Assembly (NCBI GenBank): GCA_963971285.1
Contig: OZ020257.1
Span: 10,368,602-10,432,601, forward strand
From: Astropecten irregularis
Lineage: Eukaryota; Echinodermata; Asteroidea; Paxillosida; Astropectinidae
Length of the DNA: 64,000 bases
Direction of reading: 5' to 3'
Positions 21,032 through 59,559 of this stretch are shown one piece after another. The translations under genes and the position numbers were made by a program. Position 1 is the stretch's first letter. The number at the start of each line of letters is the position of its first letter. The notes beneath the pieces were generated by a model. That model saw only the letters and a list, made by a program, of their open reading frames with translations, was not told where the DNA came from and made no database searches.

Positions 21032-21387
21032 TGTAAGAAGCCTAACTTAAATGACAACTATAATCAACAATAAGGCTCCGCCCTCAAGCTATTTATAGAA
21101 CACCCCCTTTCTATTTACAGCCATAGTTACCCGGATGTTCGGCCTATGCGTCAAGCGAAATAAACAACCCCTGTGACTTGATTATAATACACGATTATAT
21201 AGCACTGTTACAAATAAATCACCAAAAATAATTTATATAGGCCAATTGTTTTGTTCGTTTCTTTTTTTTTCTGCAAGTGACATATATAGACTAGATTATA
21301 TGGAATGCATGCTTTTTACTTTTGCATATTGACCTATTCCCTCTAGTATTGAGAATCGCTCAGGATGGTTGTAGTATTTCGTTTTGT

Positions 21388-22194
21388 CTATTCGTAAAGT
21401 AAGAATCCACTGAATGTACCGTGGTAGGGATACACCTTCCCGAGAACTGTCAAATACACCTCGTCCTCATCTTGGAGGACAACCAACGCACTACTAGATA
21501 CCTGTTCGTATTCATCTGATGTAGAACTGAAGGCTATGGCAATATAGACACCATTTCTTTCAAGACGTACAAAGAGCCGATTACCAGGATACTTGGTCAA
21601 AGAGAACATAAAGACGTAGGTGCCCGGGATACTACATGTGAAGGCACCCGTCTCAAGACTGATGTTAGTACCCGGCGCAAGCATCAATGTACTATCGAAG
21701 GGCAAACGGGCATAGCTACTAGACTCGAAAACCGAAGTGTGCTGCATTGTAAAAGCTACTCGGCGGTTGGTGGGTGCTTCCCCTCGGTTCCCCTTCTCAC
21801 CCTTCAGACCAATTCCCCCAGTTGCTCCAGCTAATCCTGGTGGACCGAGTGGACCCATCTTTCCGGGCACGCCCATGCCATCTTCTCCTTTAGGTCCAGG
21901 GTTCCCGGGCTCTCCTTGCTCACCCACGGCTCCAGTCTCCCCTCTGTCACCTTTGGGCCCTAGTAGACCAATTTCACCCTTTGGACCCACTGGTCCATAG
22001 GGTCCTGGTTGGCCTGGTATACCGGGGATGCCTGGTACTGCAGCAGGTCCCTGGCAGCACATTTCACCACACTCTGGAGCAGCAGGATTCATATCACTAT
22101 CTGCGGGAACAGTGTCGGTAATAGCAGCTTGTAGCTTGAGTAAATCGCTTGTCAGGATGGAGACAACGAGGAGAAATGTCAGTCGCTTATGCAT
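21388..22194 (-). CDS. Secreted collagen-C1q domain protein, array gene 1
   Basis: 268 aa, one coding exon. Residues 1-23 form a signal peptide ([19 protein letters not shown]). A short linker holds three cysteines (C42, C46, C47), probably for interchain disulfides. A Gly-X-Y collagen stalk spans about 55-139 (some 29 triplets, one imperfection at GMGVPG). A C1q head (about 145-268) carries the family pattern [16 protein letters not shown] and ends FSGFLLYE. There is a sequon at N177. The family forms trimeric, often multimeric, pattern-recognition lectins or complement-like molecules. ATG is immediately preceded by an acceptor-like CTTCAAATTTAG, so an untranslated upstream exon is likely. 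Fifteen residues differ from gene 2, twelve of them in the head. Confidence 0.9.
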
Positions 22195-23213
22195 CTAAAT
22201 TTGAAGGGAATGTGGAGAACAATGTGCAGGGTTTGAAAGTTAAATCCGGTAAGAAATTAGTCAGCTATAAACAGAAAACGAAGGCGGTAATCCAATCATA
22301 TTATAACCCGTGTGGCGGATCTCCGTTCAGGAGCAAACTAAAGTTGTTATTTATATCACTAAGTATGGAGATACGAAAAAGGGACGACCTGCAAATTATT
22401 AAAGGGGCATTATAAGATTTGCAAAGATATGCGTTTTGGCTGAATTTGGTACTTAAAAAGAACGTTCGTCTGAACAATTTAGTAGCATTTCAAAAGGGTG
22501 GTGTAACTGTGAAGGAATCGAAGGGGACAAGGTTATTTCGGCGGTATTTCTTCTTTCCAGATGAACGAAGTGTAACAAGGTACATGAAACAATGTCTGTA
22601 AGGAAGTTTAAGACCTTCACTTCTATTTAAAAGACACTCAATCTTGATTTCCTTGAAAAACCCAGCATCTGATGAACCAAGATATTCCATTGTGAATGTT
22701 TCCAATGTTTACGAACTGTTGAGTCCATTTCCTGTCTCAAACTCAATTAATTTTGTTGGAGGCCTTGCAAATCCTGTACGCTGCCTTTAATTCCTGTATT
22801 TCTTCAAACCAGTGTTTTCATTATTTCCATTTTTTTGTTCAACGAAGAATGAGTGGCCATGTCCAAATTCATTCTAGCTTCATTCTGTACGCCTCTCGAG
22901 CATTTTCAGGATTACAAACCTAATACAATGATCGACGGATAATGATTACATGATAATCGTTAAAGGTCTATCTCCCAACGACGGAAATGTTGGTCACTTG
23001 TTAATGGAACAAAATGTATAGATCCGCCCTACGCACGCGCTTTGTGGAATGGGATCCAATCGTTGCATCTTATAACAATTGAAAAGAGAATTTAATGCAG
23101 CAATTTCCCCAAATTTTATGATTAGTTACTGAGCCTTTGCGATATTGGAAAGATTAAACCGCTGACGTGACCCCAGCTAGCTTGATGGGGTCTAGTGACA
23201 TGACATCTGCATT
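22195..23213. other. U1 upstream region of C1q gene 1, no gene
   Basis: Likely promoter or intron region of gene 1, strongly conserved with the other units. It includes a 60-codon open frame (22419-22601) that I reject as coding. Nothing else recognised. Confidence 0.5.
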
Positions 23214-23568
23214 AAAGGTAGTATCATACTTTGGTAAGACACCAAAACAGAAATGTTAACAGATTTACGTATAACTTACAGGGTATGAAGATGGCCGGTG
23301 GTAGAATCATACCGTTAAATTGTTTCCGCCTATAATGGTGTGTTTATCCTGAAAATAGTAAAACAACGACCGAAAATATTTTTGATGTTTTAAAAGATCA
23401 AAAATAAAAGAGAAATTCACTGGTCGTTTTTTTTTCACTGTTTTCTCAAAAAGCGGGCACCGTATGGGACTGAAGTTTTCCCACATGACTATTACTGTAT
23501 CGTCCTTGATATTTTTGCCCATGAATCTGTATTTCTTTGACAAAAACCTAAGTATGATATTACCTTTA
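23214..23568 (+). repeat. TTAA MITE, family 1 (U1 copy)
   Basis: Complete inverted ends. The copies at the same unit position in U2, U3 (truncated) and U4 show it was inserted before the array duplicated. It is followed by a B-box-like GTGGTTTCTAATCCCACC piece of an older tRNA-SINE. Confidence 0.8.
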
Positions 23569-23794
23569 ATAAGCAGGAGGTCGTGGTTTCTAATCCCACC
23601 CGAGCCGGCATATGAATTGTCAATGAATGTGCACTCAAAATGCACTGAACACCCAATGCTGATACACGTCAATGAAGAACTCAACTAATTTGAATAATTC
23701 TATCACCCCGACGTCTTAGTAACAATGATAATTATTGCTGCGGTTTTGACTTTGCGAATTCTATATAATAAATTCAATACTTTTCTTAATCATG

Positions 23795-24090
23795 AAATAA
23801 CCACACGGGAAACTGTCTGAATTAATTTGAAGAGGCTAATGAAAAGAGAACAAACAAGCGGCGCACTGAACACCGATTACCAGCGCATGAGCTACCAAGC
23901 ACTGTGTTGTTGGTCTCCATACATGTAGTCAATTATAGTATCTCTTTTCGTTTGGCAGTTAGAAGCCAGAAACCACTCCCAAGGATCATTGAAGATACGT
24001 ATACGCAGCATTAACAATGCAACAACCTAAGGAAACGCTACACGAGGAATTACTCAAAGAGGATATGGCTTTTTTTATATAATCAATATA
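23795..24090 (-). mobile_element. tRNA-derived SINE (older, shared copy, U1)
   Basis: Minus-strand copy with tail GGTTATTTCAT at the left. The tRNA part contains GGTAGCTCATGCGCTGG, and the upstream part ends at the AGGATATGGC motif. Orthologous copies are in U2 (32264-32610), U3 (truncated) and U4. Compared with U2, part of the B-box region is lost. Confidence 0.65.
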
Positions 24091-24375
24091 TAATCATTGA
24101 AAAGTGAACAAAGAAAAATTGACTGGAGCGGGATTCGAACCGGCGACCTCCTGAATACCGTACAGGCGCTCTACCAACTGAGCCATCCAGCCCTATGTTG
24201 GTGGTGACCCCAATAGTCAACTATCCTTGTTCGTTTGGCAGTCAGAAGCCATGAAACCACGCACACACCGCCACACCCCAGGGATCGTTTCAATGATACA
24301 CGCAACAATGCTGCAACCTGGGAACGGTACATGGGGGATCACTCAAAGAGGATACGGCTTTTTTATATAACTTAC
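24091..24375 (-). mobile_element. tRNA-derived SINE (second copy, private to U1)
   Basis: Sits directly beside the older SINE. From the minus strand: upstream part, then A box TGGCTCAGTTGGTAGAGC, B box GGTTCGAATCCCGC and tail TTCACTTTTCAATGA. U2 and U4 lack it. It closely matches the copy at 14645-14945. Confidence 0.7.
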
Positions 24376-26268
24376 AATCATTTACATGTCATTTCAGTAC
24401 TGTGGGAAGCTTTGGAATGCTTGAATAAAACCTGAGATAAAGATTTCAAAAGATTTTAAGATTGAGATTTCAAAACTGTATGACGGTTTCATCTTCTTGA
24501 TATAACAATAGTACACAACATTTAAAAATATTTTAATAAACATAAAGAACTGTAAGTTGAATATTTATTTGAATTATCATACTGAAGAAAAGAAGAGGGA
24601 ACGAAACCTAAAAAGCGCACGCCTGTGTTAGGATAGCCCACTGAAGAAACAATGCAGTAAAAGCTACATATGTGTACCTTACAAAAAAATACAGACAAAA
24701 TAAATGAAATGTATAATAGTGCACAGAGACCGAAAACAGATTAAATTATCAGGATGGAAAGTGCAATGGATTGGTGCATTGTAAGTGGTATCGTTTAAGT
24801 TGACTTTTCAAACTATTGTAAGATATCGATTCGCTGAGAGCCAGTGGCAGAGTGTTCTATAGTTTGGGTTCAGTAAATCTAGTCAAGAATCAGATGCCCT
24901 GTGTTGAGGAATGTGAACGAGTAGGTTAATTAAGACTTGGTTATTGTACAAACATTTACATAATAGACTGAGTAAGCAACTTTCAGTAGTATTTACAGAT
25001 AGAATGAGGCTCTTTTTTCACATTTCTCAAGATTAGTTGGCTATAAACCATGGACGATGCGTTTCTTGTAATTCATCGACCATTTTTTTCGCAAGACAGT
25101 CGATTTATCTAAATTCGTTCGAAATTTCCCCACTCAATATTACAATATATGGATAGTAAGAGAGCTTGAGTACTAGCGAAGAGTAAAATTTGGCAGTGAG
25201 TGATTGGTTACCAGCGCTGTCAATCAAATATCCCGTACGGTGATCATAAACACATTAGAACAGTGACTTGTATTTCACTGACAGATCATAATATTCACGT
25301 TAATGTAAGATGCAAGTAGCACGTACCATTGACTTACAGGTCATTACCATAAATTATGTAAACGTATGGTATATAATACATCCACCAGTTACTTGATTGA
25401 CAGATGACAATGAATATGCATTAAGCAGTGTATATAACAGTGGTTTTGATTGGATGGCATTTATAGACACACGTTAACTCAGTCTATGCATGCTTTGAGT
25501 TGTACTCTATACACTTGTCGTAATAAGGAAATATTCCGATCTTATCGATAGACAATGTATAAAGCAACCGTAGATCCATACAGCAGTGCCTGTAAACTAA
25601 ACATTGTACAAACCAATTTGTAGTCTATTCTGGAAACGTGACCATAGTTATGTCAATTCAAGTTTGTTTGGTTTTCAGTCACCGACATCGATTGGGTTCG
25701 TGTAATTGATTTATTGTGGAATTATGATAACCAGTTAACCTTGGGATTTTGTGATTCTACCTTTTTGACTCGATATACAGTCGGTTTAAATGACTCCATT
25801 GGCCTTCAAAGTGGAGGGACGCTTCCTAAAAAACTTACGGCTTGGATAAAACATATTTGGTTTTTTTTTCTTGGGGTGATTAGCAAATGTTCTTATCGGC
25901 AAACTATTAAAAATTGTAACGTGTTTCAATGATTGAGATTTAAAGTAGAATTCTCAGTATTGTTTCCAAAGATGAGAGACTCCCGGTTGGTGTAGTGCCA
26001 CTGCTAAGTTTGTGGATTTTAACTCGATGGTCAAATATTTTATTGAGTTTGGCGCACCCATATAAAATGGCAGCGCCATCCGTAGCAATCGTCGTCATAG
26101 CGCCACCACTCAGTATGAATAGAAAGATCAGACAGAGGCTGTAAAACCTATTTCCTTTTCTAGAGATAATGTTAAATGTTTGCTGTAAACGTCATTTCTA
26201 GGGCACTTAACACCCGGTATTACATTTATACTGCATGTAGTTTCTTATCCCGAGCCTGTGGCGTGCGC
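24376..26268. other. U1 inter-gene DNA, no gene
   Basis: Array DNA conserved with the other units but without a supported gene. U1 lacks the 311-bp TTAA insertion (empty site GTTAATTAAGAC near 24934) and the splice-donor segment found in U2 and U4. Confidence 0.5.
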
Positions 26269-26379
26269 GTTTGGAACGCGTTTGCCAAGTTGTCGACAAA
26301 CTGCCGCGCATTTTCCCACATGCGCAGTTTGTCGACAAAATTAATTCCACGCATTGTGATTATCCAATGCGTTGCAAAC
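26269..26379. repeat. 111-bp fold-back (U1 copy)
   Basis: Outer arms GTTTGGAACGCG and GCGTTGCAAAC are inverted; inner arms TTGTCGACAAACTG and CAGTTTGTCGACAA pair perfectly. It occurs in U3 and U4 at the same place and truncated in U2. Probably an old MITE. Confidence 0.65.
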
Positions 26380-27119
26380 TCATGGTGGCGCACTATTGTG
26401 AATCGGCCGTATTCGAATTAACCCTCTTCCCAAAATGTCTGACCCCAGCCCGACATTAATATAACCCAAACTCTCACATTATATACACCCAGCCCAGCCG
26501 CAGTTTTAACCCTTGTTCGTTAACATCACATCCCCTGTCTTAACCTTAGCCCCAGCCCTAACCATACAAGTCCCATGCCATAATCCTCAAAGATAAAAAC
26601 CTTGCCACAAACAACCCTTTATTCTTCTGAGGTGTCAACCTTGCCTTTGCATTGTTTTCCCATATACCAGCTGACCCCCTGTTGTTGATTAATTGTATAA
26701 TCTGTGATAGTTCCGGAAATATTTCATCAAAGAGGCATGTATAAAGGAATTTTGTGTATGGAATGTTGGGATAAAAGTTTGGACTTTTCCATGGAATGTA
26801 CGTGCATATTCATGTCATCTAGAGATGTTTGTATCAGTACATTTGCATATGCATCATCCCTGACTGTCCTGAGTTGTAATGAAGGTTGCGTCTGTGAGTT
26901 CCAGAGACGTCTGTTAGTTCCCGATAGCGAATCATACCAGTTGAGACGGTGAGGGCGATGAACTCCCCATTCTGCAGCCCCGAGTCCAATCGAACGGCGG
27001 TTTTTTTATATATATTTTTTTTTTAATATTATTTCATTACATTTGCCATTTATTCATACCGTCTCATCTTCAGACAAAATTCCTTATGTATCATTAATTG
27101 TCCAAGTTTGTTTGTAAAT
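26380..27119. other. U1 array DNA with CCCAGCCC/AACCCT-rich stretch
   Basis: C-rich low-complexity sequence (ACCCAGCCCAGCC, TTAACCTTAGCCCCAGCCC) followed by AT-rich DNA. A GTG-initiated 82-codon frame at 26704-26952 is conserved among some units but is not credible as a gene. Confidence 0.4.
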
Positions 27120-27420
27120 AAAATATCATTGTCTCATGTTCTCCCAGTATATAAACGTATCTGCCTGATACTGTGCTATTGTCTGTTGCTGGTTTCCCTC
27201 ATTATCAGAGTCATATCCCTTTTCCTGTAGGTTTCTGCCTAATTGCGCTTGACTATTGGACTTATTGCCTGTAAGTTTTACATACGTAACACAGGATATA
27301 TTTTCAGCATTCACTGTGGTGACTTTAAAGACGGATATGTAGGGTCTTAAGGGTCGCAATATTGATCCTGATTTGACAAGGGCAACCGACAAAATAATGT
27401 GGACCATATGTCATTACGGA
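27120..27420 (-). pseudogene. Relic exon pair of an unidentified host gene (U1 copy)
   Basis: In minus sense an acceptor-like tract precedes DQYCDP and KVTTVNAE-like coding sequence. A second acceptor-like TTACAG is followed by KGYDSDNEGNQQQTIAQYQA, which looks like a polar cytoplasmic tail. U1 has a stop after DQYCDP and a shifted frame. The family is not recognised. The U2 copy is the only one open across the first block. Confidence 0.3.
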
Positions 27421-28406
27421 TTATTGCTTAAGTGAGGGCGCCCAAACGAAACAAGCGGACTTGATAAGCACAGGAGTAGAACTTGGGACAAGTCTACTAG
27501 TTTCGGTGGAAACAATACAAAAAGACAAATCAGAATGCATGTCAACCTGACACTGCGTCTGCAAGAATATTACTTCAAGTAAACTATTTAGGAAAGTAGT
27601 CGTATACAGGATTAAGACTAGACTGAAAGTCTGCTTGCGGTCACTGGAAGGATAATTAAGATGAAGTTTGTCTACCTGACAAATGTAGAAAATGCTTCAA
27701 GAAAGTGGATGAGCAACTAAACATGAACAAACCAGTAAATGCATGCAGTTACAACTTAAGAAAAGATAGATTTTTGAAACATTTACATGTGAAATCAGAG
27801 GCGTAGATAACGGGGTCGTACGTCTCCAGAATTTCTTGTCACATGAAACGTGCACAATCGTACTATAAACTTACGACCAAGCTAGAGGATCACCCCCAGG
27901 TCTGAAGACTTGTCTATACGCCACTGTGTGAAATGGAGATTGTGAAGACCGAATGGGAAAATTTTGAGACGTTGGCGGCAGCAGACCGGAGTCTCATTTT
28001 TGCTTGCTCTGGGCATGCGCGCACAATTAATTGTGAGCATGCGTGCGCAATCAAATTGAAGACCCAGTTCCAAAGTCTCCCATTGTACGAATCTTCTTGG
28101 GTTTTTACAAAGACTGGATTGTGACCCATCGCAACGAGTGAATTTATAACATAATTTACTGAAAATGATAATCAAAATGCGGATGAATAGGGTGAACAAG
28201 AAATAGTGTAGTATTTTTTTCGGAATATGGCCACAATTTATTTCTTTTATATTGAATGTTTTAAAACAAAATACATTTACCAAACATGTTTCCACAGATG
28301 GTTGCAAAGATTATAAGATAATTGGAAGTTTATCAGGTGGCATGTCAATTAAAAGAATTGTTCATAATTCCACTTTAGCATTATACGTTGTTTCAGGTAA
28401 AATCAT

Positions 28407-28533
28407 ATGGTGGCGCAGGAGGGACATCGCACATCACAAATATCTGCAAACATATTTGTGATGTACGACAGTCGTACATCACAAATATGTTTGCAGATAT
28501 TTGTGATGTGCGATGTCCCTCCTGCGCCACCAT
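28407..28533. mobile_element. 127-bp perfect palindrome, private to U1
   Basis: Two 63-bp arms, exact reverse complements around a single A. Each arm itself contains ACATCACAAATAT in both orientations. Flanking TAAAATC is doubled. U2 (about 39139) and U3 (about 48845) show the uninterrupted empty site GGTAAAATCAGCAAATC. This is a recent insertion of a fold-back element. Confidence 0.85.
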
Positions 28534-29435
28534 AAAATCAGCAAATCTACTCATTATACTAAACCATCAATAAGATAGTTCGATGGGCTGTTATTTTTGA
28601 ATAAGGGTTCCATGCATTTTAATATTTATATCAGTCACAATTTCGGCAACTGGGTTCACTCTCATTCTCAAACCTCGTAAGAAAGGCCAACAGATACAAA
28701 GAATAGGAAATCAGCGATATAAACATGAAATGCCAAAAATGTAACATCATTAAATTAAAGTATTGGTTTTAATGTGTTCGGGCATGTTTTCTGCTCTGAA
28801 AAATTTGTTTTAAAGTATTTTCTAATAATGTGTATCGATACCAGTACCTGTCATAATTTATTTATACCACGTAAATGTTATTATTATTGATAAAGAATAA
28901 TTAAAATATTTTAATCATCTTAAAAACAAGTTTCTGATTTCGCAATTCCTTGTCTATTCGTTAATTACTCACAACCATTAGCCGGAACAGATATAATGCA
29001 TTGATTAGAAATTCTGCACTTACCATGTGATGGTTTTAACCAGGTCAATCGTTGCTTTTATCTAGGGCTGATATTTTAATTGATCTAGAATCTAGAATTT
29101 CTTTGTTGTCAACAATCCCCTCTAACTAAATGAAGGAATGTATGATTGAAGTATGATTATTGTCAGGAATGTGATGCCTTCTGTAAATGTGTAATTTGAT
29201 ACCATGTGGTGTAATCACAACCTTCATGATATCTTGATCCTCTCAATTGTTTCTTCCTTTTCAGCAAATCATCATAACAGCTGGTTTAATCATTTTACTT
29301 TCAGACATTATCATGCTAATTCGAACTGAACCGAACTTCACATAGATGTTTTACCAAACAAATCTCATAATTTTGTGTGAAAACGAACAGTTTATGCGAA
29401 ACCACAATTTAAGAAGTTTGTCTCAAATTTCAATT
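28534..29435. other. U1 right end, no gene
   Basis: AT-rich array DNA, conserved with U2 (39150-40027) and U3. No gene or repeat recognised. Confidence 0.5.
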
Positions 29436-29828
29436 TCCGTAAGAAGCCTAACTTGTATGACAACTATAACCGACAATAAGGCTCCGCCCTCAAGCTATTT
29501 ATAGAACACCCCGTTTCTATTTACAGCTATAGTTACCCGGATGTTCGGTGAAATTGCACAATGTTTTACGTATACTAAGAGCCTATGCGTCAAGCGAAAT
29601 AAACAACCCACGTGACTTGATTATAATACACGATTATATAGCACTGTTACAAATAAATCACCAAAAATAATTTATATAGGCCAATTGTTTTGTTCGTTTC
29701 TTCTTTTTTTTCTGCAAGTGACAGATATACATTAGATTATATGGAATGTATACTTTTTACTTTTGCATATTGACCTATTCCCTCTAGTATTGAGAATCGC
29801 TCAGGATGGTTGTAGAATTTCGTTTTGT

Positions 29829-30635
29829 CTATTCGTAAAGTACGAATCCACTGAATGTACCTTGGTAGGAAGACACCTTCCCGCCAACTGTCAAATACAC
29901 CTCGTCCTCATCTTGGAGGGCAACCAACGCACTACTAGATGCCTGTTCGTATCCATCTGATCTAGAACTGTAGGCTCTGGCAATATAGACACCATTTCTT
30001 TCAAGACGTACAAAGAGCCGATTACCAGGATACTTGGTCAAAGAGAACATAAAGACGTAGGTGCCCGGGATACTACATGTGAAGGCACCCGTCTCAAGAC
30101 TGATGTTAGTACCCGGCGCAAGCATCAATGTACTATCGAAGGGCAAACGGGCATAGCTACTAGACTCGAAAACCGAAGTGCGCTGCATTGTAAAAGCTAC
30201 TCGGCGGTTGGTGGGTGCTTCCCCTCGGTTCCCCTTCTCACCCTTCAGACCAATTCCCCCTTTTTCTCCAGCTAATCCTGGTGGACCGAGTGGACCCATC
30301 TTTCCGGGCACGCCCATGCCATCTTCTCCTTTGGGTCCAGGGTTCCCGGGCTCTCCTTGCTCACCCACGGCTCCAGTCTCCCCTCTGTCACCTTTGGGCC
30401 CTAGTAGACCAATTTCACCCTTTGGACCCACTGGTCCATAGGGTCCTGGTTGGCCTGGTATACCGGGGATGCCTGGTACTGCAGCAGGTCCCTGGCAGCA
30501 CATTTCACCACACTCTGGAGCAGCATGATTCATATCACTATCTGCGGGAACAGTGTCGGTAATAGCAGCTTGTAGCTTGAGTAAATCGCTCGTCAGGATG
30601 GAGACAACGAGGAGAAATGTCAGTCGCTTATGCAT
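29829..30635 (-). CDS. Secreted collagen-C1q domain protein, array gene 2
   Basis: 268 aa with the gene-1 architecture. It differs from gene 1 at 15 positions: one in the linker (P37H), two in the stalk (GATGG becomes GEKGG) and twelve in the C1q head. Eleven of those lie in residues 219-265, the predicted distal strands and loops. The acceptor-like AG directly before ATG is kept. The reading frame is intact, with signal peptide, linker cysteines and N177 sequon, so it is presumably functional. Confidence 0.9.
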
Positions 30636-31681
30636 CTAAATTTGAAGGGAATGTGGAGAACAATGTGCAGAGGTTAGAAAGTTAAATCCGGTAAGAAATT
30701 AGTCAGCTATAAACAGAAAACGAAGGCGGCAATCATGATCATATTATAGCCCGTGTGGCGGATCCAGTTGGGATGCACACCCCCCGTTTAGCCGCAGACT
30801 AATGCTGTTATTTATATCACTAAGTATGGAGATATGAAAAAGGAACGACCTGCAAATTATTAAAGGGGGCATTATAAGATTTGCAAAGATGTGCGTTTTG
30901 GCTGAATTTGGTACTTAAAAAGAACGTTCGTCCGAAAGATTTAGTAGCATTTCGAAAGCGTGGTGTAACTGTGAAGGATTCGAAGGGGACAAGGTTATTT
31001 CGGCGGTATTTCTTCTATCCAGATGAACGAAGCGTAACAAGATACATGAAACAATGTCTGTAAGGAAGTTTAAGACCTTCACTTCTATTTATAAAAAGAC
31101 ACTCAATCTTGATTTCCTTGACAAACCCAGCATCTGATGAACCAAGATTTCCCATGGTGACTGTTTGCAATGTTTACGAACTGTTGAGTCCATTTCCTGT
31201 CTCAAACTCAATGAATTTTGTTGGAGGCCTTGCAAATCCTGTACGCTGCCTTTAATTCCTGTATTTCTTCAAACCAGTGTTTTCATTATTTCCAATTTTT
31301 TGTTCAACGAAGAATTAGTGGCCATGTCCAAATTCATTCTAGCTTCATTCTGCACGCCTCTCGGGCATTTTCAGGATTACAAACCTAATACAATGATCGA
31401 CGGATAATAATTACATGCTAATCGTTATAGGTCTATCTCCCAACGACGGAAATGTTGGTCACTTTGGAAAGCAACAAATGTATAGATCCGCCCTGTAACG
31501 CACGCGCTTTGTGGAATGGGATCCAATCGTTGCATCTTATAACTATTGAAAAGAGAATTTAATGCAGCAATTTCCCCAAATTTTATGATTAATTACTGAG
31601 CCTTTGCGATATTGGAATAGATTTAACTCGCTGACGTGACCCCAGCTAGCTTGATGGGGTCTAGTGACATGACATCTGCAT
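30636..31681. other. U2 upstream region of C1q gene 2, no gene
   Basis: Conserved 5' flank with the 60-codon frame at 30881-31063 (rejected as coding). No other feature. Confidence 0.5.
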
Positions 31682-32036: not shown

Positions 32037-32263
32037 AATAAGCAGGAGGTCGTGGGTTCTAATCCCACCGAGCCGGCATATGAATTGTCAATGAATGTGC
32101 AATAAAAATGCACTGAGCACCCAATGTTGATACACGTCAATGAAGGACTCAACTAATTTAAATAATTCTATCACCCCCAACGTCTTAGTAACAATGATAA
32201 TTATTGCTGCGGTTTTGACTTGCGAATTCTATATAATAAATTCAATACTTTTCTTTATCATGA

Positions 32264-47870: not shown

Positions 47871-49726
47871 TTAAGTGAGGGCGCCCAAACGAAACAAGCA
47901 GACTTGATAAGCACAGGAGTAGAACTTGGGACAAGTCTACTAGTTTCGGTGGAAACAATACAAAAAGACAAGTCAGAATGCATGTCAACCTAACACTGCG
48001 TCTGCAAGAATATGACTTGAAGTAAAGTATTTAGGAAATTAGTCGTACAGGATTAGGACTAGACTGAAAGTCTGCTTGCGGTCACTGGATAATGATAATT
48101 AAGATGAAGTTTGTCTGCCTGACAAATGTAGAAAATGCTTCATGATAGTGGATGAGCAACTAAACATGAACAAACCAGTAAATGCATGCAGTTACAACTT
48201 AAGAAAAGATAGTTTTTTTTGAAATATTTACATGTGAAATCAGAGGCGTAGATAACGGGGTCGTACATCCCAGAATTTCATTTCACATGAAACGTGCACA
48301 ACCGTACTATAAACTTACGACCAAGCTAGAGGATCACCCCCAGGTCTGAAGACTTGTCTATACGCCACTGTGTGCAATGGAGATTGTGAAGACCGAATGG
48401 GAGAATTTTGAGACGTTGGCGGCAGCAGACCGAAGTCTCATTTTTGCTTGCTCTGGGCATGCGCGCACAATTAATTGTGAGCATGCGTGCGCAATCAAAT
48501 TGAAGACCAAGCTCCAAAGTCTCCCATTGTACGAATCTTCTTGGGTTTTTACAGAGAATGGATTGTGACCGATCGCAACGAGTGAATCGAAACATAATTT
48601 ACTGAAAATGATAATCAAAATGCGGATGAATAGGGTGAACAAGAAATATAGTCTAGTATATTTTCCGGAATATGGCCACAATTTATTTCTTTAAGATTGA
48701 ATGTCTTAAAACAAAATACATTCACCAAACATGTTTCCACAGATGGTTGCAAAGATTATAAGATAATTTGGAAGTTTATCAGGTGGCATATCAATTTAAA
48801 GAATTGTTCATAATTCCACTTTAGCATTATACGTTGTTTCAGGTAAAATCAGCAAATCTACTCATTATACTAAACCATCAATAAGAGAATAGTTCGATGG
48901 GCTGTTATTTTTGAATGAGGGTTCCATGCATTTTAATATTTATATCAGTCACAATTTCAGCAACTGGGTTCACTGTCATTCTCAAACCTCGTACAAAAAG
49001 CCAACAGATACAAAGAATAGGAAATCAGCGATATAAACATGAAATGCCGAAAATGTAATATCATTAAATGAAAGTATTGGTTTTAATGTGTTCGGGCATG
49101 TTTTCTGCTTTCTGAAAATTTTGTTTTAAAGTATTATAATAATGTGTCTCGATACCAGTACCTGTCATAATTTATTTATACTACGCAAATGTTAATATTA
49201 ATATAGAAATATTAAAATATTGTAATTATAGTGTCGGAATTCGCAATTCCTTGTCTTTTATTTCCTTACTCACAACCATTAGCCGGAACAGATATAATAC
49301 ATTGATTAGAAATTCTGCACTTACCATGTGATGGTTTTAACCAGGTCAATCATTGCTTTTATTAAGGGCTGATATTTTGATCCAGAATGATAGTTTCCTT
49401 ATAGATTTGTCAACACTCCCCTCTAACTAAATGAAGGAATGTAAGATTGAAGTATGATTACTGTCAGGAATGTGATGCCTTCTGTTAATGTGTAATTTGA
49501 TACCATGTGGTGTAATCACAACCTTCATGACATCTTGATCCTCTCAATTGTTTCTTCCTTTTCAGCAAATCATTATAACAGTTGGTTTTATCATTAACTT
49601 TCAAACATTATCATGTTGATCCGAACTTCACGAAGATATTTTACCCCGAAAATCTCATAATCTTGTGAGGAAACGAACAGTTTATCCGAAACCAAAATGT
49701 AAGAGGTTTGTCTCAAAATTGTAATC
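47871..49726. other. U3 right end, no gene
   Basis: Array DNA matching U1 and U2. No supported gene; it contains the empty site of the U1 palindrome at about 48845. Confidence 0.5.
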
Positions 49727-50164
49727 TCCATAAAAAGCCTAACTTGTATGACAGCTTTAACCGACAATAGGGCTCCGCGCTCGAGCTATTAATAGAACAC
49801 GCCCTTTCTACTATAGTTTATGTTCGGACAAATTAAGTGCACAACGTTTTATACGTGTACTAAGTTGGGTATATGACGTACACTGACGTAATGGAAGATG
49901 GAACGAATCTTTATTTAAATTCAGTCTAATTGTTGTAAATAGAGCCTATGTGTCAAGCGAAATAAGCACTGTTAAACAAATCACCACAAATATAATATTG
50001 TTTGGCTCGTTTTGATTTCTGCAAGTGACAGATATACACAATATTATAATGGAATACATGTTTTTTTACGCTTTTTCAAATTTCAATGTTAAACAATATC
50101 ATCATTTTCCCACAGACCTATTCCCTCTAGAATCGCTCAGGATGGTTGTAGTATTTCGTTTTGT

Positions 50165-50977
50165 CTATTCGTAAAGTAAGAATCCACTGAATGTACCGTA
50201 GTAGAAGCCATACACTTTCCCGTTGACATGCAAATACACCTCGTCCTCATCTTGGAGGACAACCAACGCACTACTAGATACCTGTTCGTATTCACCTGAT
50301 GTAGAACTGTAGGCTCTGACAATGTAGACACCATTTATTACAAGACGTACATAGAGCTGATCACCAGGATACTTGGTCAAAGAGAACATAAAGACGTAGG
50401 TGCCCGGGATACTACATGTGAAGGTACCCGTCTCAAGACTGATGTTAGTACCCGGCGCAAGCGTCAATGTACTATCGAAGGGCATACCGGTCAGGCTACC
50501 GTGAGAATCAAAAACCGAAGTACGCTGCATTGTAAAAGCTACTCGGTGGTTGGTGGGTGCTTCCCCTCTGTTCCCCTTCTCACCCTTCACACCAATTCCC
50601 CCAGTTGCTCCAGCTAATCCTGGTGGACCGAGTGGACCCATCTTTCCGGGCACGCCCATGCCATCTTCCCCTTTAGGTCCAGGGTTCCCGGGCTCTCCTT
50701 GTTCACCCACGGCTCCAGTCTCCCCTCTGTCACCTTTGGGCCCTGGTAGACCAATTTCACCCTTTGGACCCACTGGTCCATAGGGTCCTGGTTGGCCTGG
50801 TATACCGGGGATGCCTGGTACTGCAGCAGGTCCCTGGCAGCACATTTGACCACACTCTGGAGCAGCATGATTCATATCACTATCTGCGGGAACAGTGTCG
50901 GTAATAGCAGCTTGTAGCTTGAGTAAATCGCATGTCAGGATGGAGACAACGAGGAGAAATGTCAGTCGCTTATGCAT
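50165..50977 (-). CDS. Secreted collagen-C1q domain protein, array gene 4
   Basis: 270 aa, intact, with the same head type as gene 3 (SHGSLTGMP, HVNGKVYGFYY). It differs at strand/loop positions such as RLVINGVYIVRAYSSTS against [17 protein letters not shown]. The stalk is closer to the consensus than gene 3 (GPK, GLP, GEP). A Cys replaces Ser16 within the signal peptide and should be harmless. Linker cysteines, N177-type sequon and the LLYE C-terminus are kept. The start codon again follows an acceptor-like AG. Confidence 0.9.
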   Translation of the reverse strand: MHKRLTFLLVVSILTCDLLKLQAAITDTVPADSDMNHAAPECGQMCCQGPAAVPGIPGIPGQPGPYGPVGPKGEIGLPGPKGDRGETGAVGEQGEPGNPGPKGEDGMGVPGKMGPLGPPGLAGATGGIGVKGEKGNRGEAPTNHRVAFTMQRTSVFDSHGSLTGMPFDSTLTLAPGTNISLETGTFTCSIPGTYVFMFSLTKYPGDQLYVRLVINGVYIVRAYSSTSGEYEQVSSSALVVLQDEDEVYLHVNGKVYGFYYGTFSGFLLYE

Positions 50978-51973
50978 CTAAATTTGAAGGGAATGTGGAG
51001 AACAATGTGCAGGGTTAGAAAGTTAAATCCGGTAAGAAATTAGTCAGCTATAAACAGAAAACGAAGGCGACAATCAAATCATATTATAACCCGCGTGGCG
51101 GATCTAGTTGGGATGACCCCCCCCCCCCCCCGTTCAGCAGCAGACTAATGTTGTTATTTATATCACTAAGTATGGAGATATGATTTTGGCTGAATTTGGT
51201 ACTTAAAAAGAACGTTCGTCCGAACGATTTAGTAGCATTTCGAAAGCGTGGTGTAACTGTGAAGGATTCGAAGGGGACAAGGTTATTTCGGCGGTATTTC
51301 TTCTATCCAGATGAACGAAGCGTAAAAAGGTACATGAAACAATGTCTGTAAGGAAGTTTAAGACCTTCACTTCTATTTAAAAGACACTCAATCTTAATTT
51401 CCTTGAAAAACCCAGCATCTGATGAACCAAGATTTCCCATGGCCATGGTGACTGTTTGCACTGTTTACGAACGGTTGAGTCCATTTCCTGTCTCAAACTC
51501 AATGAATTTTGTTGGAGGCCTTGCAAATCCTATACGCTGCCTTTAATTCCTGTATTTTTTCAAACCAGTGTATTCATTATTTCAAATTTTTCGTTCAACA
51601 AAGAATTAGTGGCCATGTCCAAATTCATTCTAGCTTCATTCTGTACGCCTCTCGAGCATTTTCAGGATTACAAACCTAATACAATGATCGACGGATAATA
51701 ATTACATGCTAATCGTTATAGGTCTATCTCCCAACGACGGAAATGTTGGTCATTTAGGAAAGCAACAAAATGTATAGATCCGCCCTGTAACGCACGCGCT
51801 TTGTGGAATGGGATCCAATCGTTGCATCTTATAACTATTGAAAAGAGAATTTAATGCAGCAATTTCCCAAATTTTTATGAATAATTACTGAGCCTTTGCG
51901 ATATTGGAATAGATTTAACCCACTGACGTGACCCCAGCTAGCTTGATGGGGTCTAGTGACATGACATCTGCAT
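50978..51973. other. U4 upstream region of C1q gene 4, no gene
   Basis: Conserved 5' flank with a C-run at about 51117-51131 and a deletion of the AAAGGCACGACC part seen in U3. No gene. Confidence 0.5.
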
Positions 51974-52330
51974 TAAAGGTAGTATCATACTTTGGTAAGA
52001 CACCAAAGCAGAAATGTTCACAGATTTACGTATAACTTACAGGGTATGAAGATGGTGGTGGTAGAATCATACCGTTAATTTTTTTCCCGCCTATAATGGT
52101 GTGTTTATCCAGAAATTAGTACAACAACGACCGAAAATCTTTTTGATATTTTAAAAGATCAAAAATAAAAGAGAAATTCACTGGTCGTTTTTTGTCTTTA
52201 CTGTTTTCTCAAAAATTGGGCACCGTATGGAACTGAAATTTTCCCAGATGACTATTACTGTATCGTCCTTTATATTTTTGCTCATGAATCTGTATTTCTT
52301 TGACAAAAACCAAAGTATGATATTACCTTT
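51974..52330 (+). repeat. TTAA MITE, family 1 (U4 copy)
   Basis: Ortholog of the U1 and U2 copies with both ends, followed by the B-box-like remnant. Confidence 0.8.
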
Positions 52331-52549
52331 AATAAGCAGGAGGTCGTGGTTTCTAATCCCACCCGAGCCGGCATATGAATTGTCAATGAATGTGCACTCA
52401 AAATGCACTGAGCACCCAATGTTGATACACGTCAATGAAGGACTCAACTAATTTGAATAATTCTATCACCCCGACGTCTTAGTAACAATGATAATTATTG
52501 CTGCGGTTTTGACTTTGCGAATTCTATATAATAAATTCAATACTTTTCT

Positions 52550-52940
52550 TTATCATGAAATAACCACACGGGAAACTGTCTGAATTAATCGTCAGGCTAA
52601 TGACAAGAGAACAAAAAAAATCTACTGGAGCGGGTGAATCCCGCTCCAGTAGATTGTTCTACTTTGTTTGAATAACAATTGTTTGAATAACCGGTGTTCC
52701 GGCGCCCGGAACACCGATTACCAGCTCATGAGCTACCAAGCACGGTGTTGTTGGTCTCCATATACATGTAATCAATTACAGTATCTCTTTTCGTTTGGCA
52801 GTTAGAAGTCAGAAACCACTCACATACCACTATATCCCAAGGAATCATTGAAGATACGTATACGCAGCATTAACAATGCAACAACCTAAGGAAACGCTAC
52901 ACGAGGAATTACTCAAAGAGGATATGGCTTATGTTATAAT
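52550..52940 (-). mobile_element. tRNA-SINE rearranged into two palindromes (U4 copy)
   Basis: The B-box region is replaced by two inverted duplications: TCTACTGGAGCGGG (52621-52634) with CCCGCTCCAGTAGA (52640-52653), and CGGTGTTCCGG (52692-52702) with CCGGAACACCG (52706-52716). Between them GTTTGAATAA is repeated. U2 has the simple SINE sequence here. Confidence 0.65.
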
Positions 52941-53661
52941 CAATATATCATCATTTACATGTCATTTCAGTACTGTGGGAAGCTTTGCAATGTTTGAGTA
53001 ATACCTGAGATAAAGATTTCAAAAGATTTAAAGATTGAGATGAACTGTATGACAGTTTCATCTTCTTGATTTATACAACTTTTCAAATTATTTTAATAAA
53101 AATAAAATGTATAAGTTGAATGTTTATTCCAATTATCATACTGAAGAAAAGAAGAGGGAACAAAACCTAAAAAGCGCAGGCCTATGGTGTTAGGCTAGCC
53201 CACTGAAGAAACAATGCAGTGCAAGCTACAATAGTTTATGAACTTTACAAAAATTGCAGAAAAAATGAATGAAATGTATGTAGTGCACGGAGACTGACAA
53301 CAGATTAAAATAATTATCAGGATGGAAAGTGCAATGGATTGGTGCATTGTAAGTGGTATAATTTATGTTGACTTTTCAAACTAATGTAAGATATCGATTC
53401 GCTGAGAGCCAGTGACAGGGAGTTCAATAGTTTGGGTTCAGTAAATCTAACAAAGAATTAGATGCCCTGTTTTGAGGAATGTGAACGAGTAGGTTAATTA
53501 AGACTCAGTTATTGTACAAACATTTACATATATAGACTGAGTAAGCAACTTTCAGTAGTATTTACACATGGAATGAGGCTCTTTTTTTGCACATTTCTCA
53601 AGATCAGTTGGGTATAAACCATGGACGATGCGTTTGTTATAATTCATCGACTATTTTTTTT

Positions 53662-53761
53662 CAGTCATTGAAAAGTGAACAATCCCGCTCCAGTCAATTT
53701 TTGTTTGTTCACTTTTCAATGACTTAAAATAACTCAGTCAGTTTCCCTTGTGGTTATTTCA
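53662..53761 (+). mobile_element. 100-bp SINE-tail insertion with 14-bp target duplication (U4 only)
   Basis: Flanked on both sides by CGACTATTTTTTTT (53648-53661, 53762-53775); U1 has a single copy of the site. The insert has a 20-bp inverted start (53663-53682 against 53705-53724) and then the SINE 3' tail ending GTGGTTATTTCA. The long duplication points to LINE-mediated retrotransposition. Confidence 0.75.
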
Positions 53762-53775
53762 CGACTATTTTTTTT

Positions 53776-55519
53776 GCAAGACAGTCGATTTATCTAAATT
53801 CGTTCGAAATTTCCCCACTCAATATTACAATATATTGATAGTAAGGGAGCTTGAGTACTAGCGAAGAGTAAAGAGTTTTAAGAACTTTGAAACGAACTTT
53901 ATGTTTAACTGTGTGTTAATTATTTTGAGAAACAAGTAAACTGCCGCAAACTGCTCATCGACCAAAATAATGAGCTAAAATACATAGCATGCTTGGAAAC
54001 AGGAGGAACTATACATTTGGACCCCATAGCAAGAAAGAACATGTTCTTGTAATCTTGTCGTTTTAGACTAACTCTTAGAATGTTCCTGCTATAGGATCAA
54101 AACGTCAAGCCCTCTTAACTCCAAATTTTCGGGGAAAAAAGAAGTTTTATCTAACACAATATCGAGATTTGACGGACGGATCACCGTGTTGTTTTAATAC
54201 TAAATCTGGAGGCTGTTGAGCCATTAACTTGTTTCAAACTTGAAGAGCACTTACCTTGCTAGAAATTGTCTTTCTTGATAATTGTACTGTCTCTCAATCA
54301 CCCTCTCTTTGTAGAATGATCTGCAAAGGTGAGATGGGATGTTTCTTGTGAACCAGGAAGCGGCCGCCTCAGCTTTTAAACTCACCACTGATTTCCTGAG
54401 CAGTGATCGAGTCAATTTGGCAGTGTGTGATTGGTTACCAGCGCTGTCAATCAAATATCGCGTACGGTGATCACAAACACATTAGAACAGTGACTTGTAT
54501 TTCACTGACAGATCATAATATTCACGTTTACGTACGAAGCAAGTGCATCCGCCATTGAAGTAGCAAGTAGCACGTACCATTGACTTACAGGTCATTACCA
54601 TAAATTATGTTAACGTATGGTATATAATGCATCCACCAGTTACTTGATTGACAGATGACAATGAATATGCATTAAGCAGTGTATATAACAGTGGTTTTGA
54701 TTGGATGGCATTTATAGACACACGTTAACTCAGTCCATGTATGCTTTGAGTTGTACTCTATACACTTGTCGTAATAAGGAAATATTCCGAACTTGTCGAC
54801 AGACAATGTATAAAGCAACCGTATATCCATACGGCAGTGCCTGTAAACTAAACATTGTACAAACCAATTTGTAGTCTATTCTGGAAACGTGACAATAGTT
54901 AATATGTCAATTCAAGTTTGTTTGGTTTTCAGTCACCGACATCGATTGGGTTCGTGCAATTGATTTATTGTGGAATTATGATAACCAGTTAACCTGGGAA
55001 TTTTGTGATTCTACCTTTTTGACTCGATATACAGTCGGCTTTAAATGACTCCATTGGCCTTCAAAGTGGAGGGACGCTTCCTGAAAAACTTACGGCTTGG
55101 AAAAAACATATTTTTTTTTCTTGGGGTGATTAGCAAATGTTCTTTTCGGCAAACTATTAAAAATTGTTACGTGTTTCAATGATTGAGATTTAAAGTAGAA
55201 TTCTCAGTATTGTTTCCAAACATGAGAGTCTCCCGGTTGGTGTAGTGCCACTGCTAAGTTTGTGGATTTTAACTCGATGGTCAAATATTTTATTTAGTTT
55301 GGCGCACCCATATAAAATGGCAGCGCCATCCGTAGCAATCGTCGTCAAAGCGCCACCACTCAGTATGAATACTGAGATCGGACAGAGGCTGTAAAACCTA
55401 TTTCATTTCTCTAGAGATAATGTTAAATGTTTGCTGTAAACGTCATTTCTAGGGCACTTAACACCCAGTATTACATTTATACTGCATGTAGTTTCTTATC
55501 CCGAGCCTGTGGCGTGCGC
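53776..55519. other. U4 array DNA, no gene; keeps the splice-donor segment
   Basis: Conserved unit DNA. The minus-strand donor segment ending TCTAGCAAG|GTAAGTG is at 54253-54400, as in U2, and is a candidate 5' exon for C1q gene 4. Nothing else recognised. Confidence 0.4.
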
Positions 55520-55630
55520 GTTTGCAACGCGTTGGCCAAGTTGTCGACAAACTGCCGCGCATTTTTCCACATGCGCAGTTTGTCGACAAAATTAATTCCA
55601 CGCATTGTGATTGACCAATGCGTTGCAAAC
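55520..55630. repeat. 111-bp fold-back (U4 copy)
   Basis: Complete outer (GTTTGCAACGCGTTGG) and inner (TTGTCGACAAACTG) arms. Confidence 0.7.
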
Positions 55631-56374
55631 TCATGGTGGCGCACTATTGTGAATCAGCCGTATTCGAATTACCCCTCTCCCCAAAATGTCTGACCCCAGC
55701 CCGACATTAATATAACCCAAGCCCTTACATTATATACACCCAGCCCAGCCGCAGTTTTAACCCTTGTTCGTTAACATCACATCCCTTGCCCTAGCCTTAA
55801 CCTTAGCCCCAGCCTTAACCATACAAGTCCCATGCCCTAATCCTCAAAGATAAAAACCTTGCCACAGACAACTTCCCTTTATTCTTCTGCGGTGTCAACC
55901 TTGCCTTTGCATTGTTTTCCCATACCAGCTGACCCCCTGTTGTTGTTGATTAATTGTATAATCTGTGATAGTTTCGGAAATATTTCATCAAAGAGGCATT
56001 TATAAAGGAATTTTGTGTATGGAATGTTCGGATAAAAGTTTAAACTTTTCCATGGAATGTACGTGCATATTCATGTCATCTAGAGATGTTTGTATCAGTA
56101 CATTTGCATATGCATCATCTCTGGCAGCTGTTCTAGGTTGTGACGACGGTTGCGTCTGTGAGTTCCAGAGACGTCTGTTAGTTCCCGATAGCGAATCATA
56201 CCAGTTGAGACGGTGAGGGCGCTGCGGCTGGACTCCACATTCTGCAGCCCCGAGTCCAATCGAACGGCGTTTTTTTATTATTTCATTACATTTGCCATTT
56301 ATTCATACCGTCTCATCTTCAGACAAATTTCCTTATATATCATTTGTCCAAATTTGTTTGTAAATAAAATATCA

Positions 56375-56660
56375 TTGTCTCATGTTCTTCCAGTATACAC
56401 GTATTTGCCTGACACTGTGCTATTGTCTGTTGCTGGTTTCCCTCATTATCAGAGTCATATCCCTTTTCTTGTAGGTTTCTGCCTTGCGCTTAACTATTGG
56501 ACTTGAGCCTGTACGTTTAACATACGTAACACAGGATGTATTTCAGCATTCACTGTGGTGACTTTAAAGACGGATATGTAGGGTCTTAAGGGTCGCAATA
56601 TTGATCCTGATTTGACAAGGGCAACCGACAAAATAATGTGGACCATATGTCATTACGGAT
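56375..56660 (-). pseudogene. Relic exon pair of an unidentified host gene (U4 copy)
   Basis: Shares with U1 both the DQYCDP stop and the one-base loss in the following block, and has a further stop in the tail block. Grouping with U1 agrees with the insertion pattern. Confidence 0.3.
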
Positions 56661-57104
56661 TATTGCTTAAGTGAGGGCGCCCAAACGAAACGAGCGGACT
56701 TGATAAGCACAGGAGTAGAACTTGGGACAAGTCTACTAGTTTCGGTGGAAACAATACAAAAAGACAAATCAGAATGCATGTCAACCGGACACTACGTCTG
56801 CAAGAATATTACTTCAAGTAAACTATTTAGGAAAGTAGTCGTACAGGATTAAGACTAGACTGAAAGTCTGCTTGCGGTCACTGGATAAGGATAATTAAGA
56901 TGAAGTTTGTCTACCTGACAAATGTAGAAAATGCTTCATGATAGTGGATGAGCAACTAAACATGAACAAACCAGTAAATGCATGCAGTTACAACTTAAGA
57001 AAAGATAGATTTTTTGAAATATTTACATGTGAAATCAGAGGCGTATAACGCGGGGTCGTATACATCCCCAGAATTTCATTTCACATGAAACGTGCACAAC
57101 CGTA

Positions 57105-58004
57105 TAGACCACGGGGCATGCCCGATTATTTTGCAGTTTCGTGACGCATATCACAGATCTACGTAAATTATACCTTAAACTACTCCAGAGGATGTCCCAA
57201 GACTCGCACATAAAATCCACAGTTGAGTGTTTTGCCAGTTTAAGCAAAAATAGCCATTTTACGTTCAAAATTTCGCTTTAAGAAACGGAGAAAAAACCAT
57301 TGCTTTTTAATGGCCAATCAACGAGGCCCTTATTACATCATGCATATTCAATAGGTAGTGGACCAATAGCAAAGCCCGTAAGAGAGAGCGTAGGCACCGC
57401 TGTTCGTGACAAGATATAGATGGCGGTGTCCACGAGCTCCTCGGACGCGGAATGAAGCCACGGTGGTTTCTGAAAGCTCTGGATTTTTTTTCTGTGAAAT
57501 TTTACATGATTTAGTCATTTTAGTGAGGCATTTATTTCTCACTTTGGTTTTTTTTTGTGGTATGAATAAAGCTGGAAAGGTGAAACTTCTTGATTGAAAT
57601 AGACCCCCACCCTGAGGCTGCGGATGGTTTAGAATCAAGGTTTCTGAATCTTAATAGGTCTGAAATTTATTTCAAATTACTTGACATTGCTTCAAACGTC
57701 ATATTTTGGTCGTAATAGTTTCCTTTTCCCGAGTCACACCTTTGAAGAATCTCAGCAACAAGGAATATTATCCCATTCACTTTGTACACGATTGGCCAAT
57801 TCCCGCCAATAGAGGGCGCTGTTTTTCAAAGGGGTAATTAAAATGGAAATATTTAATTAACTGGCAAATTTGGGATTGTGGATTTTGGTTTTTAATGATC
57901 CCTGAGGTTTTACCTATCAGTCTGTGGTGTTTCCACTTAGTTCCCAGGGGTGCGCCAAGAAACTTGTTTTCTGAGCACATTTTGAAGCCATGCCCTGTGG
58001 TCTA
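57105..58004. mobile_element. 900-bp inverted-repeat element at the U4/U5 junction
   Basis: Ends TAGACCACGGGGCATG and CATGCCCTGTGGTCTA are inverted with one difference. If TA is the target duplication this fits a Tc1/mariner-like non-autonomous element. It joins unit position about 48307 (U3 numbering) directly to the collagen part of a C1q gene, so about 2.4 kb of array DNA is missing around it. No transposase recognised. Confidence 0.65.
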
Positions 58005-58436
58005 GCCCTGGTAGACCAATTTCACCCTCTGGACCAAAGATCATATAGCGCTACGCGCAAGATGGATAACTGATCATAGGGCGCGTGGTAATTAGTATGG
58101 AAGTCGCCATTCTCCATACAAATTATACACGATCCTCCATTTTGGTGTGCAAATAGCGAGTAGTTTGTACACGGGACATATGGGAGCTGGGAGATTTATC
58201 AAAGAAAAGTGAAGTGTTAGGCAAAATGTTGGCCCGGATTAAAACCTATTGTTTATTGTAAATAGAAATCTTTGACATTGGTGTGAAGCAGCTGAACATG
58301 AAAACGGCGATTGTTGGTTAGTTGACCACACTCTGGAGCAGCAGCACTATCTGCGGGAACAGTGTCGGTAATAGCAGCTTGTAGCTTGAGTAAATCGCTC
58401 GTCAGGATGGAGACAACGAGGAGAAATATCATCTAA
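58005..58436 (-). pseudogene. Fifth C1q-collagen gene, fragment
   Basis: Only about 30 bases of the collagen stalk (58005-58034) and the signal-peptide and linker region (58321-58436) remain. The intervening 286 bp are unrelated, and the whole C1q head is gone. The signal-peptide end is itself shortened: the sequence jumps to CATCTAAATTTG without the MHKRLT start. Not functional. Confidence 0.8.
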
Positions 58437-58677
58437 ATTTGAAGGAAAATGTGGAAAACAAAGTGCAAGGGTACAAAAGTAAGGTCACCAAAAAAATAGT
58501 AAGCTTTAAACAGAAAACAAAGGCGACAATCAAATCATATTATAGCCGCGATCTATAGGCGGATATAGTTGGGATGCACCCCCCCCCCCCTCCGTTAAGG
58601 CACATCCTGGAAACCATTAAAGGGAGCTTATAGGATTGGCAAAGATGAGCGTTTTGGCTGAATTTTGTAAACAGAAG

Positions 58678-58830
58678 TGAAGGTCTTAAACTTCCTTACA
58701 GGCGTTGTTTCATGCACATGTACCTTTTTACGCTTTGTTCATCTGGATAGCAGAAATAGAATCCTTCACGGATACACCACGCTTTCGAAATGTTACTAAA
58801 TCGTTCGGATGAACGGTCTTTTTAAAAGAC
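58678..58830 (-). repeat. Inverted copy of the C1q 5'-flank block
   Basis: Reverse complement of the block at about 22450-22620 in U1 (and equivalents), containing CCTTACAG...GTTTCATG...TTCATCTGGATA. It is in the opposite orientation from its neighbours, which remain in array order: a local inversion. Confidence 0.7.
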
Positions 58831-59066
58831 ACTAAATCTTGATAATGACTTGATTTCCTTGAAAAAAAAAAGTCATCCGATTAACGAAGATTTCCCATGG
58901 TGACTGTTTGAACTGTTTAGGGCCTTCGATCTGTTGAGTCCATTTTCTGTCTCAAACTCAATAAAAAAAATGTTGGAGGTCTTCCAAACCCTGTACGCTG
59001 CCTTTATTTCCTGTATTTCTTCAAACCAGTGTTTTCCAATTTTTTGTTCAACGAAGAATTAAACAG

Positions 59067-59350
59067 GCACGTTCACACACACCAAAAAAGCGCGACTATT
59101 TGGGTATAGTCTCCCTTGCTGTTTGAACGGTGCACCAAAAAATACCGGTTTTTTATATTCCATCATGCAAGGCGGGCCCGCGAGTTTAGCACAGGATGCA
59201 TGCCAACTTCACGCTTCACTGCGTACGCGTAGTTTGATAGAAATCGTACCGGTACGATTTGGGTCGCGCTTTTTGGCCTGTGGGAACACGACAAAAAGCG
59301 CGACTAATTCGGTCGCGATTAGTCGCGCTTGTTGGTGTGTGTGAACGTGC
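59067..59350. repeat. 284-bp MITE in U5
   Basis: Ends GCACGTTCACACACACCAA and TTGGTGTGTGTGAACGTGC are perfect inverted repeats that continue into AAGCGCGACTA. Non-coding. Confidence 0.8.
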
Positions 59351-59559
59351 TTATTATGTTAGTCCCTCGACCATTTTGATCGACGGATAATCACATGCTT
59401 ATCGTTATATGCCAACGACGGAAATTTTTACCACTTGCGAAACCAACAAACTAAATTGGGATCCGCCCCTGTAATTACGCACGCCCTTTATCGAATGGCA
59501 TCATCCAAACGTTATATTGAAAAGAGAATTAAATGCTACGGTGTTCCATTTGTGCCGTC

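Follow-up and report, generated by a model that had tools for sequence, protein, structure and literature searches.

The window analysed here is a stretch of 64,000 nucleotides from the sea star Astropecten irregularis (contig OZ020257.1, positions 10,368,602 to 10,432,601 of the forward strand). It carries, in tandem, four intact genes and one decayed copy of a gene for a protein with a collagen stalk and a C1q head. On balance, we think it probable that the array is a small family of secreted C1q-like proteins that arose by repeated duplication, that its units have exchanged sequence, and that the outer loops of the head are under weak diversifying selection. The heads are of two types, A and B. 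These types are real but are not confined to the head, as the difference between them runs on into the 3′ untranslated region (UTR) and the 3′ flank. The genes and the relic are located as follows (positions are those of the window).

21388–22194, minus strand: gene 1, collagen-C1q gene, head type A, 268 amino acids (open reading frame and Pfam)
29829–30635, minus strand: gene 2, collagen-C1q gene, head type A, 268 amino acids (open reading frame and Pfam)
40467–41279, minus strand: gene 3, collagen-C1q gene, head type B, 270 amino acids (open reading frame and Pfam)
50165–50977, minus strand: gene 4, collagen-C1q gene, head type B, 270 amino acids (open reading frame and Pfam)
57994–58586, minus strand: decayed fifth copy, whole (sequence homology)
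58665–59536: fragments homologous to the 5′ flank, belonging to the relic, one of them inverted (58665–58825)
22195–22250, minus strand: pyrimidine-rich stretch ending in TTTAG directly before the ATG (gene 1 coordinates)

The four intact genes and the relic are same-strand tandem paralogues. An earlier note, made from the letters of this DNA, had described four intact minus-strand genes at intervals of 8.4–10.6 kb, and this is borne out by the open reading frames, by Pfam (4/4) and by the distances between start codons (8441, 10644 and 9698 bp from gene 1 to gene 4). The coding sequence (CDS) of each gene is one open frame with no stops or frameshifts. The array does lie in the span that the note had given (21032–59535); the end point also takes in the decayed fifth copy, fragments of which reach 59536. 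This copy keeps the signal peptide, the linker and the near 5′ flank (58319–58586, approximately 80% identical) and a fragment of the stalk (57994–58035), and no head was detected in 56501–58600. The TTTAG and the pyrimidine-rich stretch recur in similar form in each of the four genes and in the relic; their position directly before the ATG suggests the probable 3′ splice site of an intron in the 5′ UTR. A search of viral contigs with gene 1 gave no related loci.

Each protein begins with a hydrophobic segment that resembles a signal peptide (read by eye), followed by a CGxMCC linker, a Gly-X-Y stalk and, from residue 142, the C1q head. In all four genes, Pfam places the C1q domain PF00386 at the C-terminus (E 4e-20 to 1e-18) and the collagen region PF01391 ahead of it. 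The stalk is a run of 18 glycine-led triplets, a single interruption and a further 11 triplets, and all 29 register glycines are kept in the four copies (register read by eye). By their collagen and C1q domains, the products are C1q-like type I proteins, and this is the one kind of chain seen in the window. The predicted head matches C1q folds, the best being Caprin-2 (Foldseek E 5e-8, from a model with a mean predicted local distance difference test score, pLDDT, of only 56). The fold would point to ligand recognition, and, judging by the family, the proteins would most likely bind glycans or proteins, microbial or self, in innate immune recognition. The nearest solved heads, however, are domains of Caprin-2, C1q-like, cerebellin and C1QTNF5 proteins, with complement C1q lower in the ranking. 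This would suit extracellular matrix, egg-coat, adiponectin-like or synaptic-type C1q proteins, in which the head types serve different partners in one body. We hold such a role only tentatively, as tandem clusters of near-identical C1q genes have been reported for lectin-like C1q families.

The residue differences among the copies fall mainly, and not uniformly, in the head. Between genes 1 and 2 there are 15 residue differences: one in the linker, two in the stalk and 12 in the head. Eleven of the head changes are at 220–265 in the proteins' own numbering, in agreement with the earlier count of 12 of 15 in the head and eleven in 219–265. The second head type in genes 3 and 4 is likewise plain in the sequences. 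Between types, 25–28 of the 30–37 residue changes sit in the head, and replacement changes concentrate there in five of the six gene pairs. Over the four genes, 32 of 129 head columns are variable compared with 12 of 141 elsewhere (p 0.0004). Genes 3 and 4 depart from this; their 15 changes are divided among the signal peptide and linker (2), the stalk (7) and the head (6), with no excess in the head over the rest (Fisher p 0.60, on a count of 130 head columns). A constant stalk with a varying head thus does not hold uniformly over the array. Outside the register glycines, the stalk (9 of 59 positions variable) is not significantly less variable than the head (32 of 129, p 0.18). Gaps are few in the CDS alignment, with just two intervals of 3 bp each, compared with 18 intervals of 1–115 bp in the upstream 1.4 kb. 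Changes within the head do not cluster in 20-column windows (permutation p 0.88). The longest stretch of the head without a change spans 20 columns (186–205, p 0.07). The column counts use a head of 129 columns; the clustering, invariant-run and per-pair tests used 130.

The genealogy of the copies changes along the gene. The repeat units and the block over which the two types differ are located as follows.

21026–29431: repeat unit 1, approximate limits
29432–40065: repeat unit 2
40066–49763: repeat unit 3, approximate limits
49764–57104: repeat unit 4, approximate limits; likeness to units 1–3 is lost near 57.1 kb
28704–30506, minus strand: type block in unit 2, from CDS +129 through the stalk, head, 3′ UTR and approximately 1.1 kb of 3′ flank

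No pairing of the four genes is favoured over the 1.4 kb upstream. From −2300 to +109, 3 of 16 informative sites favour the pairing of genes 1 and 2 against genes 3 and 4; from +129 to the stop codon, 28 of 30 do so. None of 5000 permutations matched this contrast. Silent and noncoding sites alone make the same switch (3/15, then 5/5), so the switch is not a product of selection on residues. Three type-supporting sites are located in CDS 1–423 and 25 in CDS 424–813; the 287 alignment columns that follow the CDS, where the alignment is partly uncertain, have 52. The 3′ UTR becomes type-specific only after its first 47 alignment columns, which are near-invariant (1 of 40 ungapped sites varies, with one 7-bp gap). 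An RNA fold at the start of the 3′ UTR of gene 2 was not found (z 1.2). Further into the 3′ flank, gene 2 differs from genes 3 and 4 by 10–37% in seven of eight 150-column windows up to approximately 1.1 kb past the stop codon and by 3–5% in the remaining window; beyond approximately 1.1 kb, the difference is 0–8%. Genes 3 and 4 differ from each other by 0–4% up to approximately 2 kb.

The units themselves are mosaic in make-up and have exchanged sequence with one another. Units 2 and 3 have a common 2.4-kb block that is 95% identical (32477–34868 in unit 2), unit 1 is nearest to unit 4 in six of eight tiles at 25226–27326, and in units 3 and 4 the gene with its 3′ side is 96.6% identical over 3.2 kb. 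Two 300-bp tiles of unit 2 (33032–33631) have no match in units 1 and 4; others match partly. Given the genealogical switch and the mosaic units, exchange among units is the simplest account of the genealogy. Exchange, with two distinct 3′ blocks, would also be responsible for part of the pattern of constant front and variable head, which thereby has a second cause beside the recognition that the earlier note had proposed.

The same comparisons bear on whether the repeat could be an assembly artefact, with heterozygous haplotypes of a shorter array set head to tail and some of the copies being alleles. Many parts of the copies differ by just a few per cent, heterozygosity of a few per cent occurs in some marine invertebrates, and the likeness of genes 3 and 4 over 3.2 kb would fit two alleles. 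On the other hand, the pairing shifts along the units, from the block common to units 2 and 3 and the tiles in which unit 1 is nearest to unit 4 to the 3′ gene block, in which 1 pairs with 2 and 3 with 4. The units also differ by large indels, and there are no N runs. This mosaic pattern makes mis-assembly of haplotypes unlikely, and we give it little credence.

Among 27 informative head sites, only codons 221 (ATA/AGA) and 226 (ACA/AGA) conflict with the types, the same two states being present in both. One could imagine from this a constant/variable system run by recombination, in which gene conversion copies the 5′ half (5′ flank, signal peptide and linker) from unit to unit throughout the array, the blocks of head and 3′ UTR stay separate or travel as cassettes, and short conversion tracts shuffle loop residues between the cassettes. 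We regard a system of this kind as doubtful.

Codon analysis suggests, but does not establish, a ratio of replacement to silent rates (dN/dS, omega) above 1 in the head. By Nei-Gojobori counting, the heads of genes 1 and 2 differ by 13 replacement changes and no silent change, and those of genes 3 and 4 by six and one. A one-ratio codon model gives an omega of 2.77 for the head (p 0.014), rising to 3.67 in the C-terminal half of the head (p 0.013), compared with 0.99 for the stalk and 0.86 from the signal peptide to the stalk. Of 200 one-ratio simulations at omega 1, one gave an omega as high as 2.77, and two gave a test value as high as the observed one together with an omega above 1. Allowing multi-nucleotide changes again gave 2.77 for the head (p 0.022). 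Across the four genes, 37 variable nucleotides at approximately 294 replacement sites of the head (approximate classing) exceed 90 of 1122 in the upstream noncoding sequence (p 0.02). Several results weigh against selection. The whole CDS reaches an omega of 1.81 only at p 0.055; the five regions tested overlap, and their p values are uncorrected. Without the seven codons that have at least two variable positions, the omega of the head is 2.53 (p 0.060), and the difference in omega between the head and the signal-to-stalk region gives p values of 0.096 and 0.088. The comparison of site models M1a and M2a on the head (twice the log-likelihood difference, 26.8) was dropped as evidence, because its signal rests on codons with several changes and falls to 4.0 without them. 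The split of changes between genes 3 and 4 described above counts on the same side. Upstream noncoding divergence is 3.7–5.6% in all six pairs of genes. The dN of the head is 4.6% for genes 1 and 2, 2.0% for genes 3 and 4 and 10–12% between types, so it exceeds the flank level only between types; for genes 1 and 2, it is not above their 5′ flank (5.3%), and their high dN/dS arises because silent changes are few. Overall, the evidence for selection is marginal.

Relaxed constraint in young redundant duplicates could account for much of this. The head residues would simply be freer than the stalk glycines, dN/dS would be high since the CDS has few silent changes, and the head types would be an old difference kept by chance. 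The omega of 0.99 in the stalk fits this explanation, as do the non-significant contrast between the non-glycine stalk and the head, the head dN at flank level in genes 1 and 2, and the fifth copy, which shows that copies die. It fits less well with four genes that have neither a stop nor a frameshift and only 3-bp gaps, with the excess of head replacement variation over upstream noncoding variation and with the concentration of head changes in loops. We consider relaxed constraint a possible but lesser explanation. It overlaps the reading that we prefer, as do the non-immune roles considered above, and the weights given to these explanations need not add up to certainty.

The position of the changes in the fold was examined on a head model made from the four-sequence alignment. 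Since the first 47 head residues are not reliably modelled, the loop count covers columns 185–269 and excludes 10 variable columns in 142–184. In the jelly-roll topology, the chain ends are at the base; our naming of outer and base loops rests on this topology and on the strands of a model of low pLDDT. In the columns counted, 9 of 22 positions vary in the CD, EF and GH loops compared with none of 10 in the BC, DE and FG loops (p 0.03). The preference is weaker than this suggests, as 13 of 53 strand columns also vary and the CD, EF and GH loops compared with all other modelled columns give p 0.09. A literature search on the loop names surfaced no C1q paper. In a profile alignment with cerebellin-1 (Cbln1, its numbering fitted to Y122/R124/D147), columns 226, 228 and 229 pair with D145, D147 and V148, and columns 206/207 come after the residue that pairs with R124. 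According to the published record, the Cbln1 mutant Y122A/R124A/D147A is unable to bind GluD1 (PMC13018601). Two of the CD, EF and GH loops align in this way with receptor-binding residues of cerebellin-1, so some of the head variation is located where this homologous head binds its partner.

The earlier note had read the array as a recognition locus that varies its binding face, and this reading is supported in part. The head-biased changes in five of six pairs, the omega above 1 and the loop bias are consistent with it; the stalk changes of genes 3 and 4, the loss of significance on masking codons (p 0.060), the head–stalk contrast (p 0.09–0.10) and the flank-level dN of genes 1 and 2 are not. 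Taking both sides together, we favour the following sequence of events. A unit of 7–11 kb was probably duplicated repeatedly to give the array. The proteins would trimerise via the stalk and head, and the cysteines of the N-terminal CGxMCC linker could cross-link the trimers into multi-headed lectin-like particles. In the 5′ half, which comprises the 5′ flank, signal peptide and linker, unequal crossing over or gene conversion among the units would have mixed the copies until no pairing was left. Downstream, two versions of the 3′ block (head, 3′ UTR and flank), each with its own head, would have stayed separate. The outer loops of the head would be under weak diversifying selection.

Other features of the window, for which Pfam was additionally run on 16 open reading frame stretches, are located as follows.

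5711–14321, plus strand: exons of a Peptidase S28 gene, three open reading frames matching PF05577 (E 2e-12, 1e-7 and 3e-9; Pfam)
14836–14908 and 24120–24192, on opposite strands: two tRNA-Thr(GGT) genes
18280–18678: open reading frame with Myb/SANT-like domain PF13873 (E 4e-9; Pfam), perhaps from a transposon
23214–23567, 31683–32036, 34867–35226 and 51975–52330, with a partial copy at 42264–42427: foldback element of approximately 355 bp
4178–4531 and 13413–13687: related foldback copies
61632–62093: three tandem copies of a 154-bp unit, 97% identical

The foldback element has terminal inverted repeats TAAAGGTAGTATCATACTTTG and frequently adjoins TTAA. One copy is located approximately 1 kb upstream of each intact gene (partial for gene 3). 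Each tRNA-Thr(GGT) gene is embedded in a stretch of approximately 290 bp that the two sites have in common; the second gene falls within unit 1 of the array. Transposon-like repeats are present in the window. An Rfam hit to the histone stem-loop at 580–624 (34.3 against a threshold of 34) was taken as chance, as no histone was seen by eye in the frames of 1–800 (plus) and 1–1400 (minus).

The closest published arrangement is that of the Eastern oyster. The C1q-domain genes of this species are described as same-strand tandem paralogues, some above 90–95% alike, for which unequal crossing over was proposed. Positive selection was reported on 4–11 sites of the head in each cluster, more often in its hypervariable C-terminal part, which is rich in gaps; the oyster genes are mostly coiled-coil or head-only, with no collagen-stalked (type I) gene reported in the genome (PMC6835236). 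Tandem paralogues on one strand are common to both systems, and exchange among units is seen here and proposed there, whereas here all four genes are collagen-stalked, the CDS is in one exon, and the type block is defined by recombination. Classical C1q with a collagen domain has been reported in vertebrates, cephalochordates, urochordates, hemichordates, echinoderms, molluscs and annelids (PMC11312191). It shares the collagen and C1q domains with the present proteins, and the record describes no array or head typing. OXYL and its paralogues, from a crinoid, form a family of secreted C1q lectins, several close members of which lack introns (PMC6409975). Putative secretion and an uninterrupted CDS make the present genes similar; OXYL is head-only, has no collagen stalk, and its record makes no mention of a tandem arrangement. 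The Sp185/333 proteins are not known to be related to C1q. Their sea urchin immune gene cluster, for which microsatellite-mediated diversification is named in a title (PMC3091723), is alike in being a cluster of diversifying immune genes and belongs to a different protein family; C1q goes unmentioned in its record. No collagen-stalked C1q tandem array with head types was found in a limited literature collection at the level of records rather than full texts.

By analogy, the array is best read as a small, young tandem array of C1q-like lectins, a further case of the kind published for the oyster clusters but with a different stalk. A collagen-stalked C1q is the architecture of vertebrate C1q. 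If real and expressed, the array would be a compact example of an animal keeping one assembly stalk while varying the binding head, and since only four of its genes are intact, the contributions of exchange and of selection could be told apart.

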